From positions 1 to 58,622 of the forward strand of contig JANQLO010000077.1 in assembly GCA_028280505.1 (NCBI GenBank): DNA of 58,622 nt, read 5' to 3'. The notes under the pieces were generated by a model. The model made no database searches, was not told the DNA's origin, and worked only from the letters and a program-made list of their open reading frames with translations. Shown here piece by piece: positions 17,680 to 25,805 of this stretch. Positions within the stretch are counted from its first letter, which is position 1; the number at the start of each line of letters is the position of its first letter. The position numbers and the translations under genes were made by a program. Source of the DNA: Chromatiales bacterium (GTDB lineage: Bacteria > Pseudomonadota > Gammaproteobacteria > Chromatiales > Chromatiaceae).

Positions 17680-18102
17680 TTACGAATCGCCGTCCCGGCT
17701 CTGGACGTCTGCGGCGATGCCTTCGTTGAGCTTGTTGGCACGATATTCACGTGCAACCTGATCCCAGTCGGTGTCCGCTGCAAAGCGCTGGTGATAGTCG
17801 GAGTAAGACAGGCCTTCCGGGCTGTCACGGACGACTTCGTACAGGCTGATGCGGCTCGGACCCCAGGTGTCGATGGTGCCACGGAAATCGTTCAGGGCGA
17901 TGCCGTCGACGTTCGACTCGATGACCAGGCGGTTCAGCGATGCCACGCGGTCGGACTTTTCAACCGGGGCGAAGGTCATGCCTTCGGTGCCGTAGTTAAA
18001 GTCGTACTCGGGGCCACCGATGTGTGAAAGGAAGTCACTGCTACCGGCGGTAGCGGCGGTGGAAGCAAGGGCGAAGATGCCAGCGATGATTACGGTTTTC
18101 AT
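17680..18102 (-). CDS. Small secreted protein of unknown function, paralogue A
   Basis: A 140-residue protein with a clear signal peptide (MKTVIIAGIFALASTAATA, cleavage before GSSDF). The mature part has no recognised domain; it is moderately acidic and has no cysteines. It is a paralogue of the protein at 25302-25727, identical across GSSDFLSHIGGPEY, NYGTEGMTFAP and ALNDFRG. The DW/DYHxRF...DTDW.QVAR.(Y/F)RA segment is also shared. The two copies bracket the CRISPR-Cas locus and share a conserved 5' leader. The ribosome site is TGAGGAGAC just before the ATG. Confidence 0.85.
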   Translation of the reverse strand: MKTVIIAGIFALASTAATAGSSDFLSHIGGPEYDFNYGTEGMTFAPVEKSDRVASLNRLVIESNVDGIALNDFRGTIDTWGPSRISLYEVVRDSPEGLSYSDYHQRFAADTDWDQVAREYRANKLNEGIAADVQSRDGDS

Positions 18103-18296: not shown

Positions 18297-20177
18297 GTTG
18301 TAGTCAAACCGCGGTTTCCGATTTGCTAAGCTTCGTTGCGGAAACAAGTGTCGGCCAGCAGGGTTGTAGTCAGACCGCGGTTTCCGATTTGCTAAGCTGT
18401 GCGAATCGATCACGCCGTCGTCGAGCAAGTTGTAGTCAGACCGCGGTTTCCGATTTGCTAAGCTAGCGCTTCTGGAACGATCCCATCAACAATAGTTGTA
18501 GTCAGACCGCGGTTTCCGATTTGCTAAGCTGGTGCCGTTCGTGGAGTGCGAGATTTCGCAGTTGTAGTCAGACCGCGGTTTCCGATTTGCTAAGCTTCAC
18601 TCGATCATTGCCGTACGTACGGAACAGTTGTAGTCAGACCGCGGTTTCCGATTTGCTAAGCTAAACAAGGCTTTACAAACAACGACAAGGTAGTTGTAGT
18701 CAGACCGCGGTTTCCGATTTGCTAAGCTGCCAACTTCTGCATGCGCTGCTGGGTCATGTTGTAGTCAGACCGCGGTTTCCGATTTGCTAAGCTGCAAAAC
18801 CCGCTAATAGCTGTTACTCAACGGTTGTAGTCAGACCGCGGTTTCCGATTTGCTAAGCTATCCGGTGTGACGATCAACACAACTGATTTGTTGTAGTCAG
18901 ACCGCGGTTTCCGATTTGCTAAGCTGTGATCACCTCGCCGGTGCTGATCTTTCAGGTTGTAGTCAGACCGCGGTTTCCGATTTGCTAAGCTCGGCGAGAT
19001 CGTGACTGTAACCCCGAACGGGTTGTAGTCAGACCGCGGTTTCCGATTTGCTAAGCTTGGCAAGACATATTCATCTGCCTAACAAGTGTTGTAGTCAGAC
19101 CGCGGTTTCCGATTTGCTAAGCTCGACCGTCAACGCGCGGTGCAGAAGCGGCTGTTGTAGTCAGACCGCGGTTTCCGATTTGCTAAGCTACAATGTTGGA
19201 CCGGTCAAAGTTCATTGAGTTGTAGTCAGACCGCGGTTTCCGATTTGCTAAGCTCATCCTTACATCGTCGTCTGTGAGCCTATCGTTGTAGTCAGACCGC
19301 GGTTTCCGATTTGCTAAGCTGTGCCTCTCCATTTCGAGGGAGCACAGGCGGTTGTAGTCAGACCGCGGTTTCCGATTTGCTAAGCTCGTTACCCTGACGG
19401 CATCGAACCGTTGGGGGTTGTAGTCAGACCGCGGTTTCCGATTTGCTAAGCTGGAGCTGCTACGCAAGTACAACACGTTTCGTTGTAGTCAGACCGCGGT
19501 TTCCGATTTGCTAAGCTAGGCTGTCATTCAAGATCTGGGTATATCTCGTTGTAGTCAGACCGCGGTTTCCGATTTGCTAAGCTAATGAGCAGGCGTCGAA
19601 TGACTCGGCGGATGTTGTAGTCAGACCGCGGTTTCCGATTTGCTAAGCTTCTCTCCTGGCATGGGGTTCGACTTCGTGCGTTGTAGTCAGACCGCGGTTT
19701 CCGATTTGCTAAGCTTATACCCTGGCAAGGCCCGCTATCGTCTCAGTTGTAGTCAGACCGCGGTTTCCGATTTGCTAAGCTCGATCACGTCTACCAGCAA
19801 GCGCCCTATGAGTTGTAGTCAGACCGCGGTTTCCGATTTGCTAAGCTTCTGGTCCAAACAGCACGACTCGGCCATCCGTTGTAGTCAGACCGCGGTTTCC
19901 GATTTGCTAAGCTTGAGTGTCTTGCGACCGTCCGCCGCTACCCGTTGTAGTCAGACCGCGGTTTCCGATTTGCTAAGCTAAAGGTCGCCATGGTCGGGAT
20001 CGGCGTATGGTTGTAGTCAGACCGCGGTTTCCGATTTGCTAAGCTCTTCTTCTGGCAAACCAAGAAGGCTCGCGTGTTGTAGTCAGACCGCGGTTTCCGA
20101 TTTGCTAAGCTGCGCGGGGTTTGGATGCGATACGGCCGCCGGTTGTAGTCAGACCGCGGTTTCCGATTTGCTAAGCT
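18297..20177 (+). CRISPR. Type II-C CRISPR array, 29 repeats and 28 spacers
   Basis: The array has 29 copies of a 36-bp repeat that begins GTTGTAGTCAGACCGCGG and ends TTCCGATTTGCTAAGCT. Twenty-eight are identical; the first (18297-18332) has one change (CAAACC for CAGACC). Spacers are 30 bp except three of 29 bp (7, 14 and 18), and no two are the same. The GTTGTAG start is typical of II-C repeats. The tracrRNA anti-repeat is complementary to the plus strand, so crRNAs are read rightward. The last nine bases TGCTAAGCT resemble an extended -10 element (TGN-TAnnnT), as in Neisseria arrays where each repeat carries its own promoter. Open frames through the array are artefacts of the repeat. Confidence 0.98.
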
Positions 20178-20249: not shown

Positions 20250-20579
20250 TCAGAACAGCGTGAATTGTTTGGGATTTTTCTTAACCTGCCGCGTCCGACC
20301 GACGAAGCTGTAAATGCTTTCGTACTGTTTGTCGGTGATCGTTACGATATCGACACGCCCCCCTTCGGGTAGGTGTTCCTTGATTCTGCCATAAAGCGTT
20401 TCGGCCTGCTCTTTGCCGCTGACCAGTCGCATGTAAACGGAGAACTGCGCCATTTCGAAACCTTGGTCGAGCAGGTAGTTACGAAACTTTGTGGCGTCTT
20501 TGCGCTCGGCTTTGGTTTTGGTCGGTAGGTCGAACAGCGTCATGATCCACATCAGTCGATACGCCGACAATATGCTCAT
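20250..20579 (-). CDS. cas2: CRISPR-associated endoribonuclease/integrase subunit Cas2
   Basis: A 109-residue Cas2, the structural dimer that bridges Cas1 in spacer integration. It begins MSILSAYRLMWIMTLFDLP, with the ferredoxin-fold first strand and the conserved Asp in FDLP, then FRNYLLDQGFEMAQFSVYMR and VDIVTITDKQYESI. The start codon overlaps the cas1 stop as TAATG, fixing the start. Its stop is 72 bp from the last repeat, so the leader and new-spacer end of the array should be that short gap. It is last in the cas9-cas1-cas2 operon. Confidence 0.96.
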   Translation of the reverse strand: MSILSAYRLMWIMTLFDLPTKTKAERKDATKFRNYLLDQGFEMAQFSVYMRLVSGKEQAETLYGRIKEHLPEGGRVDIVTITDKQYESIYSFVGRTRQVKKNPKQFTLF

Positions 20580-21496
20580 TACACGAGTGCCAGGGCTTGG
20601 CAATTAAGTGGCGTCGGCGGCTCCGGCAGTGTGAGTTTGGTTTCTTCGCCCAGGAACACCTGTGCCAGTGAGACGGCGAGATCGCTAATGCAATTGATCA
20701 CCGGTGTTGTCACACCGGATTGTGCCAGGTCGGCATATAGCAATTCGGCAAGTGCTGCCTTGGTGTCTCTGTCGACTTCCAGGCGGCCTTGTTTATCCAG
20801 TGCGAAGACACGCAGGTCGACCAAGGGGCGAAAGGGTTCGATTAGGTCGTCGACCAGTTGCATGGCATTGTAGGCGTTGCGGTGGTGCATACCGATACTG
20901 GGATGCAGGCCGGCAGCGACGACGGCACGGGCGGTAGCGGATCGGACGATCGCATAGCCGTAGTTGAGCAGGCTGTTGTGGCCGCCCGCCTCGCGGTCGC
21001 GGCGAAAATCTTCGCCGAACAGTAGTTGCCAATAACGTCTCGCCGCCTGGGCCTCGATATTGTCGGGATCGCCGGATCGCACCTTCGCGATCAGAGCCCT
21101 GACGGGTACGACCGGTTGGCCGGCATATTCGAGTACTGCCGCCTGCATGGCCAGCTTGGATTTGACCAGTGACTGCCACAGCCGCTTGTGTAGCGGTTTG
21201 CTTGCCGTGAGCTGGGCATTGATACGTTTTGCTTGTTGATAGTTACCGTCGATGGCCAGAAGCATGCCGACGGGTTGGTAGTTGTTGCCGCACAAGACGA
21301 AGGGTGCGCCACGTTCGGCGAGGGCGGCCAGTAAGTTACTGGTATGGCTGATGCCGTGACCGGACGCGATGACGGCAGCGAGTTCGTCTAGCGGTACGCG
21401 CCCGAGTTCTTCGCGGCCGGTCGATACCACCATGAACCCGCGGTGCAGATGCAGGTGACGGTTGTCGTCGTGTATATCGATGATCCGTCCGGGCAT
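20579..21496 (-). CDS. cas1: CRISPR-associated integrase Cas1 (type II-C)
   Basis: A 305-residue Cas1, the catalytic subunit of spacer acquisition. Metal-binding residues are expected at E148 (PDNIEAQAARRYW), the His pair at 204-205 (GMHHRNAYNA) and the Asp/Glu of VDDLIEPFRPLVD. The start ATG at 21496 follows a near-perfect Shine-Dalgarno (AAGGAGG) and the family's short N-terminal beta strands; a longer open frame to 21637 is rejected. It is co-transcribed with cas9, 86 bp downstream of its stop. No csn2 or cas4 is present, which supports type II-C. Confidence 0.97.
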   Translation of the reverse strand: MPGRIIDIHDDNRHLHLHRGFMVVSTGREELGRVPLDELAAVIASGHGISHTSNLLAALAERGAPFVLCGNNYQPVGMLLAIDGNYQQAKRINAQLTASKPLHKRLWQSLVKSKLAMQAAVLEYAGQPVVPVRALIAKVRSGDPDNIEAQAARRYWQLLFGEDFRRDREAGGHNSLLNYGYAIVRSATARAVVAAGLHPSIGMHHRNAYNAMQLVDDLIEPFRPLVDLRVFALDKQGRLEVDRDTKAALAELLYADLAQSGVTTPVINCISDLAVSLAQVFLGEETKLTLPEPPTPLNCQALALV

Positions 21497-21582
21497 GGCG
21501 GCCTCCTTGCGTAGGCGTGAAAGTGCGCGAGCTTCGCAAAGCATCGCGGGCTTTTGCCCACTCCTTATCGGCAGGAGGCAGG

Positions 21583-24500
21583 CTAGCCTTGAAAGCCGGG
21601 GTCGTGGATGCGCCCCAGCACGTCGACCCTGACCCACCGTGCGCGAAGTGAACGTAATGCTCCGGGCGATTTGGTGAGGTAGCTGAAGGGATCATCTTTG
21701 TCGCGGTCGCGACCATCGACGTTGGCTTCAAAATGGTCACAAAGCACGACCTTTCCTTCAGACATTTTTTGAATTCGCATCACCCGCTTGCCGCCCGGCA
21801 CCGGTTCGACAATGATCATATCGTTATTGATGAGCCGCATGATTAAAGGTTGGCCATCGAACGTAGTTGATGCAAATCTCGGTTTATCCTGCATGAATGC
21901 CTGGTAACTCGATTGATTCGCTAGGAAAGAGCTGATGATCTGGCCGTGCCAAGTACCGTTATCTTCGCGGTAGATCTCGTAGCAATAGTTACCGCCGCCG
22001 CGGTACAGCTTGGCCGGCATTGCCGGTCGATTCTCCGGATACGGTGAGATCGCGGTGCCCTTCAGTTCGACCGTCACACCGGAGATCTTTCTCAGCAGAT
22101 AGGCCTTGTGCGGCCAATTGCCGTGACTTTGTAGTTCTGCCAGTTTTTCCTTGAATTCCGCGTCGCTCAATCCCATCGAGATTTGTTTCAGACGCTCGGC
22201 CAGTTGCGTGTCTTGGAGCGCATCGAGATCCCTGGGTTTGAGGTCGGCTAAAGGAACGCGATTGCGTGCAAGATAGCGGTCTTTGTCATCGGGGCCGTCG
22301 ACGATACCGTAAGCCGTCGCTTCGTGCAGTTGTGCGCGTGGATTGTGATCCGGCTTGTGCGACACGATACAGTGTGTGAGTCGGGTTTGGAGTTGGTCTC
22401 GAAAGCCTTGCGGTAATTCGTCGTCGATGCCTTTGAACAATGAGGCTTCGTCGATCTGCTCCATACGTGCCGCCCGTCGCGATACCGCGCCCAATAGACT
22501 GCGATCGATCAGTCCCACGACCGCAGCGTCGATCGCGTGATGACGATGGTCGTCGCGATTCTTGCCGTTGTGATCGCTAAGTAATTTGTTCAATCCCCAT
22601 TTGCCGCGGAGCAGCGCGGTCAGTCGACCCGGTGACGTAACGATCTTGTTGCTCTCACATATCGTCTGAAGATACTCGCGCGCGACCCGTGACAGGTAGG
22701 CGGTATCGGTGAGTTGGCGTTGAATGAAACCGGCACCGTCGTCTGTGAATTCGCCGCTGCTGCCCAGCCATTCTTCAATGGCGTTCCGTGCGAAGCGTTT
22801 GTGCTTGTTGTAGGGCAGCAGCGATGCGCGTTGTTGAATATCGTCCCAGTTGTAACCGGGGCGTTGCGCCAATTCCTCGATCGAGCGGTTGCCTTTGTCG
22901 GCATTGGCTTTACGTGTGATCAGAATCTTGTTGTTGAAGCCGTCGTCGAGGGTTTTACTGAACGGCAGGATATGATCGATTTGGTAGTGATTACCTTCGA
23001 AAAGCTTTCTTGCGCTTATGTGGTCGCCGCTGAGTACACACCGATGGTTGAGTGGTCCGAGTTCTTCGAACAGTTTGAGCTTGAGCCGATTTTCAGCATT
23101 TCGTTTTTGACCCCCATATTGGTCGTTAAGTCTTTTGTTAAGTTCATCGTTGCGTTCGCGATTAAGGCGGTTTTGCTTGGCTTCTTCGGCTTTGGCCGCC
23201 CGGCTTTTCTTGAGATCTCTTGCCAGTTCAATATGGATTTCGGAAGGTGCGCCGTACTTGCCGATCACGGCGTTGACCAGCCGGCGCAATTGATTGAGTG
23301 CGATATGTACGGTCGGGTTGGTGATGCGTTCCTCGGGGTGTTCCGGGTCGCTCGATGCGACCTCTTGGCAATGCCGCCATAGAACTTCGTTGTACGGTGG
23401 TAGACGATCCAGCAGGCGTTCGGGTTTCTGTATGCGGTGGTCTTTAAACCCGGCCGCGAAGACGGCCTTGTCGTAGCTCAGCGGGTGACCCTCTGGACGG
23501 TCGTCTTGCTGCCAACCGTTTTTTAGTTCATCCAGCACCCGACTGATGGCCTCACGACTGAATCGCAGGTGGCCGTCTTCGAGTCTCGCACGTGCGATAT
23601 AGCGTACGTTCTCTTCGGCCAGATCGTACTCGGTGTGAAGCCAGGCGATCAGTTCGTCCTCTTCTTCGACATCGAGTAGTTGTTCGACGATACGGTCTTG
23701 CTCGATCAGATCGAGATCGTGCCATGCCTTGCCGAAAGCCTTTTTGTGGGCCAGCGTATGACTGGTTTTGTTACCGTGTACGCTGATGCGCCCGAGCGTT
23801 GATGCCTCGATGGTAAACAGATATTCCGATGCGCCGGATCGCCCGAATAATTGTTGGCGCATCTGCGCGTATTTGGCATCTTTTCGGCGTTCCAGCCAAG
23901 CGGCTAGCTGATCGCGTTGTTCGCGTGTCAGCGGCAACTCGGTGTTGTCGGTCTCGCCTGTGTGTGAATCGAGCTGCAGCAGGCGTAGATGATTGACCTC
24001 CTGGTAAAGGCGAAACTGTTGTGCTGACGGCAGTGCCTTGGGTGCGCGGGGTTGGTCCGGCAACAAGGTGCATTTGCCGACTGGCGGCGCTTTAAGTAGC
24101 CGCTGAAAGAAGATGATGCGGTGCAGTTTTTGCCGTGCTTTGTCGGTGAGTAAGTCAGGATGGTGAGCTTGTTGACGCCGCCAGAGCTGGTCGAATTCAT
24201 CTTCGACCATGTCGCGTGATACATAGAAGTCGTAGTAAGCCTTTGCACCGCTGCCGCGAAGACGGGCGCGCGTACCGCCTCCGTTTTGCAGGCGGCTAAA
24301 CAGTGCTTCGCCAACAGTGCGGGCATTGCCCATTTCTTTTTGGAAAGCCGCGATGGCCTGTTTGATCTTGCCGGACTCGTTGTCGCCGCTGTCGCTCTTG
24401 CGGTTGGACTTGAAACCGCGCCGCTGGTTGAGATGGAACAAAGCACGCCCCAGATGGTGGGTCGGAATGCGTTCTTCCAGGGCGCGGGCGCGCAGTTCGT

Positions 24501-24834
24501 AAGGGTTGAGTTTTTGCAATGCTTTGCGTTCGGCCGCGCTCTCTGGCATTAGGCCGAACTCGGTCAGGGCCTTCAGTAAATCGCTACGCCGTCGCACATA
24601 GCGGTCGCGCCTACGGCGCTGGCTGCGCGGTATGCGCCGCCCCTGGGCCAGAGAGTCGCCGGTCTTAGGGTGTCGGCCGGCACCGATCTGGCTGTCGTTG
24701 TTACTGAAGATGCGCGAGCCGACCCGTATCAGTTCGACCGGCTGTGGGCGTTTGTCGTTCTCGCCTTGGTGTAACCGGAATACCGCCCAGCCGATGGAAT
24801 TGGTACCGAGATCGAGGGCGAGACGGTATTGCAT
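21583..24834 (-). CDS. cas9: CRISPR effector nuclease Cas9 (type II-C)
   Basis: A 1083-residue Cas9, the same size class as the compact Neisseria enzyme. RuvC-I is at the N-terminus (LALDLGTNSIGWAV, Asp near residue 8), followed by an arginine-rich bridge helix (RRRRDRYVRRRSDLL). RuvC-II is near 530 (SEIHIELARDL), the HNH domain near 600-640 (YQIDHILPFSKTLDDGFNNK, catalytic His) and RuvC-III near 768 (HHAIDAAVVGL). All four nuclease motifs look intact, so both strands should be cut. The C-terminal PAM-interacting domain is present. AAGGAG lies 9 nt before the ATG. The tRNA gene on the same strand ends only 31 nt upstream, so cas9 probably shares its promoter and is released by tRNA 3' processing. 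Confidence 0.98.
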   Translation of the reverse strand: MQYRLALDLGTNSIGWAVFRLHQGENDKRPQPVELIRVGSRIFSNNDSQIGAGRHPKTGDSLAQGRRIPRSQRRRRDRYVRRRSDLLKALTEFGLMPESAAERKALQKLNPYELRARALEERIPTHHLGRALFHLNQRRGFKSNRKSDSGDNESGKIKQAIAAFQKEMGNARTVGEALFSRLQNGGGTRARLRGSGAKAYYDFYVSRDMVEDEFDQLWRRQQAHHPDLLTDKARQKLHRIIFFQRLLKAPPVGKCTLLPDQPRAPKALPSAQQFRLYQEVNHLRLLQLDSHTGETDNTELPLTREQRDQLAAWLERRKDAKYAQMRQQLFGRSGASEYLFTIEASTLGRISVHGNKTSHTLAHKKAFGKAWHDLDLIEQDRIVEQLLDVEEEDELIAWLHTEYDLAEENVRYIARARLEDGHLRFSREAISRVLDELKNGWQQDDRPEGHPLSYDKAVFAAGFKDHRIQKPERLLDRLPPYNEVLWRHCQEVASSDPEHPEERITNPTVHIALNQLRRLVNAVIGKYGAPSEIHIELARDLKKSRAAKAEEAKQNRLNRERNDELNKRLNDQYGGQKRNAENRLKLKLFEELGPLNHRCVLSGDHISARKLFEGNHYQIDHILPFSKTLDDGFNNKILITRKANADKGNRSIEELAQRPGYNWDDIQQRASLLPYNKHKRFARNAIEEWLGSSGEFTDDGAGFIQRQLTDTAYLSRVAREYLQTICESNKIVTSPGRLTALLRGKWGLNKLLSDHNGKNRDDHRHHAIDAAVVGLIDRSLLGAVSRRAARMEQIDEASLFKGIDDELPQGFRDQLQTRLTHCIVSHKPDHNPRAQLHEATAYGIVDGPDDKDRYLARNRVPLADLKPRDLDALQDTQLAERLKQISMGLSDAEFKEKLAELQSHGNWPHKAYLLRKISGVTVELKGTAISPYPENRPAMPAKLYRGGGNYCYEIYREDNGTWHGQIISSFLANQSSYQAFMQDKPRFASTTFDGQPLIMRLINNDMIIVEPVPGGKRVMRIQKMSEGKVVLCDHFEANVDGRDRDKDDPFSYLTKSPGALRSLRARWVRVDVLGRIHDPGFQG

Positions 24835-24865
24835 GAACCTGCTCCTTGGTTGGTGCTAAACTCTT

Positions 24866-24953
24866 TGGTGCCCCTGGTGGGAGTCGAACCCACATGCCTT
24901 TGCCGGACGTTGGTTTGGAAGACCAAAGTGTCTACCGTTTCCACTACAGGGGC
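24866..24953 (-). tRNA. tRNA with UCC (Gly) anticodon on a class II, leucine-like body
   Basis: An 88-nt cloverleaf with encoded CCA. The acceptor stem GCCCCTG/CAGGGGC is perfect. The D arm GTGGAAACGGTAGACAC and discriminator A73 are leucine-like. The anticodon stem TTGGT/ACCAA closes the loop CTTCCAA, giving anticodon UCC, which reads glycine GGA. A variable arm of 16 nt (CGTCCGGCAAAGGCAT) makes it class II. The T arm GTGGG-TTCGACT-CCCAC is perfect. Normal bacterial glycine tRNAs are class I with a 4-5 nt variable loop and U73. A scanner will likely call it tRNA-Gly(TCC), but the amino acid attached is uncertain. It lies directly upstream of cas9 on the same strand. Confidence 0.88.
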
Positions 24954-25107
24954 GTTTTCTTTTGTGCGCAAATCAGAAACGCACGCATTCATTGCTACAA
25001 CACCACAAGGAAGTTTCTTCTCGGTGATTTGGGAGGAAGAGGTTTCAGAGTGGTTGGTGATTCTTAGGATAGCAGGAAAATTCCCTACCACAAGGAAAAG
25101 TAATATT

Positions 25108-25135
25108 TTGATTTTTTAGCCTAGCTTGCTAAGCT
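25108..25135 (+). promoter_or_regulatory. Predicted tracrRNA promoter
   Basis: A -35-like TTGATT (25108-25113) is followed after 16 bp by TAAGCT (25130-25135), preceded by TGC to give an extended -10. The 10-mer TTGCTAAGCT at 25126-25135 is identical to the 3' end of the CRISPR repeat. The anti-repeat begins 8 bp downstream. Confidence 0.6.
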
Positions 25136-25140
25136 AAAAA

Positions 25141-25231
25141 CCGCAAATCGGAAACCGCGTAAGTTTTGTTTGCTACTAACAAGGCTTTATGCCAACAGAT
25201 CGAAGGCCGGGCATTGCCCGTCCTTTTTGTT
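25141..25231 (+). ncRNA. tracrRNA
   Basis: GCAAATCGGAAACCGCG (25143-25159) is an exact 17-nt complement of the repeat. It is followed by an imperfect second pairing block (TTGCTACTAAC) that can pair with GTTGTAG at the repeat's 5' end, leaving a bulge. A small hairpin GGC-TTTAT-GCC (25183-25193) then resembles the AAGGC nexus of the Neisseria tracrRNA, and a terminator hairpin CGGGC-ATT-GCCCG (25208-25220) with a T-rich tail ends it. The orientation is set by the terminator and by complementarity to rightward crRNAs. Its position beyond cas9, transcribed away from it, is unremarkable for II-C loci. Confidence 0.88.
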
Positions 25232-25234
25232 TTT
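25208..25234 (+). terminator. Intrinsic terminator of the tracrRNA
   Basis: A GC stem CGGGC/GCCCG with loop ATT is followed by TCCTTTTTGTTTTT. This is a standard Rho-independent terminator reading rightward. Confidence 0.8.
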
Positions 25235-25242
25235 CCGGTAAA

Positions 25243-25276
25243 AACACAAAACCGGCCATTCGGCCGGTTTTGTGTT
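25243..25276. terminator. Terminator of paralogue B
   Basis: A 15-bp perfect stem (25243-25257 with 25262-25276, GC core ACCGGCC/GGCCGGT) has loop ATTC. Read leftward it ends in TTTT after the stem, ending transcripts of the gene at 25302; it also stands downstream of the tracrRNA terminator on the other strand. Confidence 0.8.
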
Positions 25277-25301
25277 GCTGTGAGGCGTTATCTCACGGTG
25301 C

Positions 25302-25727
25302 TTAGGAATCGCTGTTCGAGGTGTCGACATCGGCAGCGATACCCTGAGCTTCGAGCTGTTTCGCACGGAAGTCACGTGCAACCTGTGCCCAGTCGGTGTC
25401 AACGGGGAAGCGCTCATGGTAGTCGCGATAGGCGATGCCTTCGGGGCTGTCGCGCATGACTTCCCATAGCGCAATGCGGCTGGGGCCGTACTCGATGATT
25501 TCGCCTCGGAAATCATTGAGCGCGATGCTGTCGACATTCGATTCGACCATCAGTCGGGTCAATGACGGTACACGATGGCTCTTTTCGATCGGAGCGAAGG
25601 TCATGCCTTCGGTGCCGTAGTTAAAGTTGTACTCGGGGCCACCTATGTGCGACAGAAAGTCGCTGCTACCGGCGGTGGCGGCGGTTGAAGCGGCGACAAA
25701 GGCGCCGGCAAGAATCAAAGCTTTCAT
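25302..25727 (-). CDS. Small secreted protein of unknown function, paralogue B
   Basis: A 141-residue protein with a signal peptide (MKALILAGAFVAASTAATA, then GSSDFLSHIGGPEYNF), paralogous over its whole length to the protein at 17680-18102. Conserved blocks include NYGTEGMTFAP, LNDFRG and GPSRI; the ends diverge most (AADVDTSNSDS). The ATG follows GAGGAGATC, and an upstream extension to 25781 is rejected because it would bury the signal peptide. The function is unknown. Both copies are leftward, with the whole CRISPR-Cas locus between them. Confidence 0.85.
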   Translation of the reverse strand: MKALILAGAFVAASTAATAGSSDFLSHIGGPEYNFNYGTEGMTFAPIEKSHRVPSLTRLMVESNVDSIALNDFRGEIIEYGPSRIALWEVMRDSPEGIAYRDYHERFPVDTDWAQVARDFRAKQLEAQGIAADVDTSNSDS

Positions 25728-25805
25728 GGTTGGGATCTCCTCGTTAATGACGCCGGTGGCGTTACCACCGCTTACGGCCATAGAGACCCGGCGTTCCGGG
25801 AAAAC
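25728..25805 (-). promoter_or_regulatory. Conserved 5' leader of paralogue B (candidate cis-regulatory RNA)
   Basis: On the minus strand: AAAAGTTTTCC, GGGTCTCTAT-N2-CCGTA-N-GCGGTG, then a hairpin that can form CGGTGG/CCACCG or GGTG-GUAA-CGCC with a GNRA-type loop, then GAGGAG and the start. The block order and spacing are the same as before paralogue A, although the hairpin bases differ. Confidence 0.5.

Follow-up and report, generated by a model that had tools for sequence, protein, structure and literature searches.

Why does a tRNA gene that combines a glycine anticodon with a leucine-like body lie directly in front of cas9 in a Chromatiales bacterium? The window (the whole stretch of DNA analysed: 58,622 nt, contig JANQLO010000077.1 of assembly GCA_028280505.1) contains a type II CRISPR-Cas locus whose parts follow one another from left to right as array, cas2, cas1, cas9, tRNA, and tracrRNA. 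The array (18297-20177, plus strand) has 29 repeats of 36 nt and 28 spacers of 29-30 nt; cas2 (20250-20603, ORF as listed; Pfam PF09827), cas1 (20579-21637, ORF as listed, with a GTG start; PF01867), and cas9 (21583-24834; 1083 aa, with the Pfam domains RuvC_III, HNH_4, and Cas9_a) are consecutive on the minus strand, with 72 nt between cas2 and the array and neither cas4 nor csn2 in the operon, a layout that we take to be II-C-like. The tRNA gene (24866-24953) is on the same strand as cas9, and its 3′ end at 24866 is separated from the cas9 ATG at 24834 by a leader of 31 nt (24835-24865) with the Shine-Dalgarno sequence AAGGAG, just as a first, sequence-only reading of this DNA had placed it. 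On the plus strand, the predicted tracrRNA (25132-25235) comprises an anti-repeat up to 25180 (core from 25143; alignment score 42.3, shuffle maximum 36.5), AAGGCTTTATGCC, and a terminator hairpin (25208-25220), and its tail is conserved with that of the closest Cas9 relative, G016.

The only tRNA that ARAGORN calls in the window is a tRNA-Gly(tcc) (24866-24953, minus strand), and the sequence matches the Rfam tRNA family RF00005 with 58.6 bits (gathering score 29, E 3.9e-10). The sequence-only reading had described a class II tRNA in which all four stems pair, and we found the acceptor (GCCCCUG/CAGGGGC, 7/7), D (3/3), anticodon (UUGGU/ACCAA, 5/5), and T (GUGGG/CCCAC, 5/5) stems fully paired; likewise, we found the class II body, the 16-nt variable region (with a weak stem of 3 bp, including one G-U pair), and the UCC anticodon, and the gene itself includes both A73 and the CCA end. 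We computed cloverleaf energies for 43 distinct tRNAs of the same genome, the window tRNA counted in: its -27.3 kcal/mol is in the range of the intact tRNAs, since all others lie between -24.7 and -42.5 kcal/mol except for two degenerate-looking ones at -9.1 (L044) and -15.2 kcal/mol (L036). The unconstrained fold, as predicted for the isolated RNA, is not a cloverleaf and lies 7.1 kcal/mol lower; this difference is the third largest of the 43, and a genuine tRNA-Leu(GAG) has a similar one (-7.5).

We compared the tRNA with isotype profiles in which the anticodons were masked, built from 385 unique ARAGORN tRNAs (out of 430 sequences) for isotypes with at least five members. The Leu profile scored best (54.9 bits), followed by Ser (21.0) and Trp (20.8), and Gly was outside the top six. 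This margin is flattering, owing to a training set in which 68 of the 385 tRNAs are Leu (an enriched set, 30 loci having been chosen through a Leu D-arm pattern), yet it is large; as a control, the own isotype was best for 36 of 40 tRNAs of the same genome, which are also part of the training set, the exceptions being a Trp, two Met, and the odd L036. The leucine-like D arm and the conflict between a leucine body and a glycine anticodon, both proposed in the sequence-only reading, are thus borne out with the anticodons masked, here by purpose-built profiles in place of tRNAscan-SE.

The bacterial leucine determinants are listed as A73, A15-U48, G18G19, A20a, and a large variable region, the anticodon being unused (PMC9976931), and the tRNA has all of them. 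The glycine determinants in the same source are U73, G1-C72, C2-G71, G3-C70, C35, and C36; here G1-C72, C2-G71, C35, and C36 are present, and A73 and C3-G70 stand in place of U73 and G3-C70. With UCC, the anticodon is not a leucine one, so we call the tRNA leucine-type and not tRNA-Leu. It could instead be an odd extra tRNA-Gly whose glycylation relies on C35, C36, G1-C72, and C2-G71, all of which are in its sequence, and because these four do belong to the glycine set, partial glycylation is possible; but the replacements at 73 and 3-70, the complete leucine set, and the low rank of the Gly profile make an essentially glycine-charged tRNA improbable. Judged against these determinants, the tRNA is likely charged with leucine and would then read GGA as Leu.

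An ordinary class I tRNA-Gly(UCC), which the sequence-only reading had suggested looking for, lies elsewhere in the genome (G000:C33:302-375); it shares the UCC anticodon with the window tRNA but has 74 nt, a short variable region, and U73. The leucine-type tRNA is therefore an extra gene. The genome also has one tRNA-Gly(CCC) and, at two contig ends, tRNA-Gly(GCC) with identical sequences (possibly a single gene); the GlyRS alpha-subunit family has a single match in it. The two weakly folding tRNAs mentioned above deserve a description of their own: L036 (G000:C3:15890-15963) shows the converse mismatch, being class I tRNA-like with the leucine anticodon CAG (Asn profile best at 49.4, Leu 21.0), and L044 (G000:C80:41522-41593) is a degenerate second tRNA-Val(CAC) of 39.1 bits.

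Bacterial tRNA genes are described as structurally uniform (PMC4033280). A comparable combination is known from nematodes, where nev-tRNA-Gly(CCC) was reportedly found in aminoacylation and translation experiments to read GGG as Leu (Hamashima 2012, via PMC4033280); according to the same source its expression is very low and mostly rare codons are involved. The window tRNA resembles it in carrying a glycine anticodon, the anticodon of a class I codon, on a class II body of the leucine type, but the nematode tRNAs are eukaryotic, read GGG, and form a large gene family, whereas the window has a single prokaryotic gene with UCC, beside cas9, for which leucine charging is putative. GGA makes up 48 of the 614 glycine codons (7.8%) in the 15 long ORFs of the window, and since it is uncommon, limited leucine insertion might be tolerated. 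We also considered a recoding of cas9, in which GGA would stand for leucine, and rejected it: at the 7 GGA codons among the 73 glycine codons of cas9, the three closest relatives have Gly in 14 of 21 aligned residues and Leu in 0 of 21 (gaps counted), and the values for Gly at the other glycine codons are 81/120 (GGC), 40/57 (GGT), and 13/21 (GGG; gaps counted). In this alignment, cas9 gives no sign of adaptation to GGA read as leucine.

A full-length match was limited to the tRNA itself among 93 genomes (its own included), with matches to the 3′ part only in two further genomes (3/93 with any match), and the plasmid collection had no match. A pattern of Leu D arm and UCC loop, scanned in one genome each of 84,980 species (the genome of the window possibly left out, and other D arms escaping the pattern), yielded 16 stretches, in none of which ARAGORN called a tRNA; a looser pattern yielded 7 matches in 6 of the 369 genomes of the class, one being the window tRNA and the other six lacking an ARAGORN tRNA. 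In viral contigs, a pattern that included the T loop gave 10 stretches, and two of these are Leu-bodied Gly(UCC) tRNAs according to ARAGORN, with Leu as the best profile for both: L161:6484-6567, in a setting with terminase and NinG genes, and L105:600-683, near an integrase. A third viral stretch, L365, appears by eye to have a degenerate Leu-bodied Gly(UCC) tRNA, besides one tRNA-Thr call. Two viral contigs with similar tRNAs indicate that the combination recurs; the share of GGA among glycine codons in the sampled ORFs of these contigs is 33/160 (L161) and 8/155 (L105). Among 426 unique tRNAs compared, the closest to the window tRNA is a tRNA-Leu(UAG) from a phage record of 634,780 bases (64 of 87 columns), the second closest is the Leu(CAA) of G949 (62 of 89), and a viral Leu(CAA) (L430, a stretch with three tRNA-Leu calls) agrees in 60 of 86 columns, with a common T-arm pattern. 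A phage-type origin of the tRNA is likely.

Two other accounts of its origin were discarded. The T arm resembles that of the genome's tRNA-Gly(UCC) (90% over 21 nt, E 1.2), as a chimera of tRNA-Leu and tRNA-Gly would, yet the pattern also occurs in the viral tRNA-Leu(CAA), so that a chimera is not needed. We also discarded the idea that a genomic island had attached at the tRNA, since its position is within the cassette, with cas9 and tracrRNA on either side, and the window has no second copy of the T-arm 18-mer at up to 3 mismatches.

Is the tRNA tied to cas9? Cas9 matches at E <=1e-100 were found in 4 of 210 genomes of the order, that of the window included; the three closest relatives, G016, G446, and G510, share 63%, 58%, and 57% identity with its Cas9. 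In all three, the tracrRNA is divergent from cas9, the distance between the ATG and its anti-repeat core being 63, 63, and 88 nt, and no tRNA occurs in the 15-20 kb covered. The corresponding distance in the window is 308 nt, that is, about 220-245 nt more than in the relatives, and these extra nucleotides hold the tRNA and a degenerate CRISPR repeat (see below). More widely, 26 of 369 genomes of the class have a Cas9 match, and in 29 loci from these 26 genomes (many covering only part of cas9) tRNAs occur in L061 only, downstream. In the phylum sample, 37 of 398 genomes have the RuvC_III family; from the matches listed, we took one upstream stretch for each other genome, 29 in all (three with less than 500 nt upstream, and at least one with a broken cas9 frame whose start is not covered), and 2 of the 29 have a tRNA upstream of cas9: in one it is a Gln(TTG), roughly 0.4 kb from the frame, and in the other a Leu(CAA), roughly 0.3 kb from it. 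Among all Cas9 loci compared, only the window has a tRNA directly before cas9. In G949 (L521, G949:C4 near 364143-364226), the tRNA-Leu(CAA) lies 294 nt upstream of the cas9 ATG on the same strand, and a terminator-like hairpin, probably the tracrRNA, is between the two. A search of genome contigs for cas9 homologues returned 12 stretches, none of them confirmed, and the plasmid collection has 46 records with Cas9, at <60% identity.

The cassette is flanked by two copies of a small gene, both on the minus strand (17680-18102 on the left and 25302-25781 on the right; direct repeat D2), which match at 75% over 300 nt. Among eight same-genus stretches, four have one clear copy of this gene, G008 has a weak one, and three have none (one of the three not spanning the site). 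In seven of the eight same-genus genomes, the orthologous site consists of the transglycosylase and GGDEF flanks 0.35-1.6 kb apart, with neither cassette nor tRNA in between, and the contig of the eighth ends before the site; the G002 stretch (L381) has tRNA-Leu and tRNA-Ser calls, both outside the interval between the flanking genes. Since the cassette is absent from the orthologous site, it was most likely gained in the lineage of the window. The link between tRNA and cas9 is not conserved: the tRNA is missing from the three closest Cas9 loci, where it had been suggested to look for the same gene, and from all seven same-genus sites that could be spanned. Overall, the sequence-only reading holds in its conflict between isotype and anticodon and in the additional ordinary tRNA-Gly(UCC), whereas a tRNA tied to Cas9 in a lasting partnership is not supported.

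The array and the tracrRNA region contain further matches. Spacer 20 (19584-19613) is a self-targeting spacer, matching its own genome at G000:C15:20725-20756 in 29 of 30 nt, the mismatch being the last, PAM-side base; the short ORFs beside this match presumably resemble filamentous-phage coat and adsorption genes. Spacer 6 (18663-18692) and the tracrRNA region past the anti-repeat (25111-25235) have the 12-nt AACAAGGCTTTA in common, and a 12-nt match with any spacer was reached by 8 of 2000 shuffled tracrRNAs. At the start of the tracrRNA region (25105-25145), a predicted hairpin TTTTTTAGC...GCTAAAAA holds TTGCTAAGCT, a sequence identical, and in the same orientation, to the repeat's 3′ end. 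A viral scan with exact 18-19-nt pieces of 3 of the 28 spacers gave no match, and 16 phage records had weak matches to the spacers, with a lowest E of 2 among the matches listed.

Directly 5′ of the tRNA, and absent from the sequence-only reading, is a degenerate, crRNA-like CRISPR repeat (GTTGTAGC...GTTTCTGATTTGC, 24966-25001, minus strand), 12 nt from the tRNA 5′ end. Its alignment score is 34.9, between the 99% level (33.6) and the maximum (36.5) of 300 shuffles, and its predicted duplex with the tracrRNA has -39.4 kcal/mol, compared with -41.5 kcal/mol for a true repeat and with -20.1 +- 3.0 kcal/mol on average (best -30.9) for 500 shuffled sequences. Since some pairing survives in a decayed repeat by descent, the modelled duplex points to an ability to pair and not to use. 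By its position, the stretch of 30 nt before the repeat (25002-25031, minus strand) would be spacer-like; the 11 nt at its 3′ end (25002-25012), which end at the spacer/repeat boundary, recur as a second copy of TTCCTTGTGGT at 25087-25097 (minus strand), between cas9 and tracrRNA, where they form a putative self-target. With the match anchored at the boundary, 0 of 5000 shuffles of 25013-25131 reached 11 nt and 10 reached 8, in a test that was chosen after the match had been noticed. Read on the plus strand, 24966-25001 could be a second tracrRNA, but its pairing with the repeat, at -28.6 kcal/mol, is no stronger than some shuffles reach (minimum -31.6), and it lacks the AAGGC...GCC found after the real anti-repeat; we rejected this as the leading reading, although the strand is not settled by the sequence itself.

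The degenerate repeat and the recurring 11 nt raise the possibility that the tRNA of this one genome parts the cas9 mRNA from a guide that is crRNA-like and self-regulating. The minus-strand transcript would comprise a crRNA-like RNA (the 11-nt seed and the degenerate repeat), the tRNA, and cas9; the RNase P cut at the tRNA would create the 3′ end of the guide; guide and tracrRNA would bring Cas9 to the 11-nt match; and Cas9, binding there without cutting, would damp both promoters, with the tRNA as a natural processing spacer. The duplex nearly as strong as that of a true repeat and well beyond the best shuffle, the poor pairing of the element as a second tracrRNA, the match whose anchor falls exactly on the spacer/repeat boundary and which is repeated in the intergenic region, and the start of the tRNA 12 nt past the repeat all speak for it. 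Other facts count against it: it concerns one genome; the loci of relatives with a detected array have no second element above noise near cas9; any decayed repeat pairs with the tracrRNA to some extent by descent; the anchored test was selected post hoc; the flank of the own-genome protospacer, ACGAGCCA, is unlike the AGGGAATT beside the 11-nt site; and the promoter scan found no strong promoter.

Parts of this arrangement have counterparts. In engineered tRNA-guide RNA arrays, tRNAs serve as processing spacers that free the guide RNAs; the window would share the tRNA-spacer principle, the difference being that its case is natural and putative. The tracr-L of Streptococcus pyogenes reportedly uses a short guide match. 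This natural single guide sends Cas9 to its own cas promoter, with repression as the result, in a type II-A system (PMC11417352); the proposed guide would be like it in directing Cas9 to the locus's own cas promoter, but tracr-L is one long tracrRNA, whereas a crRNA-like RNA and a tracrRNA are proposed here. For several type II systems, RNAs that resemble the repeat have been predicted outside the array (PMC6199352), and scaRNAs and other natural Cas9 guides (PMC6199352, PMC13431127) are alike in being repeat-like RNAs outside the array, within the CRISPR-Cas locus, that are able to pair with the tracrRNA, as the degenerate repeat is predicted to be; the element in the window differs in lying right beside a tRNA within the cas9 leader and in having its own locus as its only proposed target.

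How would the tRNA be expressed? A scan of 24800-25320 found no sigma-70-type promoter at threshold. We propose that the tRNA would be co-transcribed with cas9 and excised by RNase P and the tRNA 3′-end nucleases, so that the remaining cas9 mRNA would keep a ribosome-binding site of its own; LeuRS would then load the released tRNA mainly with leucine, which would now and then enter proteins at the uncommon GGA codons, in weak competition with the ordinary tRNA-Gly(UCC), much as nev-tRNA-Gly reportedly acts at GGG. The leader might also act as a switch, a CU-rich stretch upstream of the tRNA pairing with the cas9 Shine-Dalgarno sequence and blocking translation until the RNase P cut turns cas9 on. 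In agreement with this, the Shine-Dalgarno sequence has a predicted unpaired probability of 0.00-0.28 when the leader is complete and of 0.95-1.00 without the 5′ part, also with the cloverleaf enforced; but pairing of equal strength arose in 272 of 2000 shuffles of 24954-25063 and in 554 of 2000 shuffles of 24954-25125. As the pairing is no better than in shuffles, we set the switch aside as very doubtful.

Our best explanation, with a probability of about 0.5, is that the gene is an intact leucine-family tRNA whose anticodon turned to UCC, which would be charged mainly with leucine, insert it occasionally at GGA, and be excised from the cas9 transcript, and which lies in the 220-245 or so extra nucleotides of a gained cassette. 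From its position, we think that a role in processing beside cas9, in which the cuts at its ends part the upstream RNA (perhaps the crRNA-like guide) from the cas9 mRNA, is a more likely reason for its place than mistranslation, which may be a side effect. The evidence for a tRNA at cas9 comes from a single genome, and the missing promoter at threshold, the lack of conservation with cas9, the weak variable-arm stem, and the non-cloverleaf fold count against this explanation. Several of the same facts would suit a harmless passenger, a fragment of phage or mobile DNA that is weakly transcribed and whose anticodon drifted without selection: the tRNA is found in one genome only, the closest tRNA compared is a phage tRNA-Leu, there is no strong promoter, and the same genome has other odd tRNA relics (L036, L044). 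The four main stems, A73, the CCA end, and the leucine tertiary nucleotides are intact, however, and the cloverleaf energy is unlike those of L036 and L044, although a recent arrival would explain an intact tRNA equally well; such a recent, harmless passenger is possible without being the favoured account, and about as likely as the self-regulating guide. Less likely than either is a leader in three parts, a self-targeting crRNA-like guide, a tRNA spacer, and cas9, in which shared tRNA-processing cuts would yield both a repressor guide and the cas9 mRNA and the freed tRNA would put Leu at GGA.

A literature search, mostly without subscription papers, had neither a bacterial Leu-bodied, Gly-reading tRNA nor a tRNA-released Cas9 guide among the matches listed. 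Should the degenerate repeat work as a guide, this would be a case of natural tRNA processing that releases a Cas9 guide, and of a short-guide autoregulator in a II-C-like system; if the three-part leader is true, a single transcript would link how much Cas9 and guide are made with mistranslation. A leucine-bodied, glycine-reading bacterial tRNA, together with its two viral recurrences, would offer a natural test of whether LeuRS is indifferent to the anticodon in vivo, and also of how much ambiguous decoding a cell tolerates.
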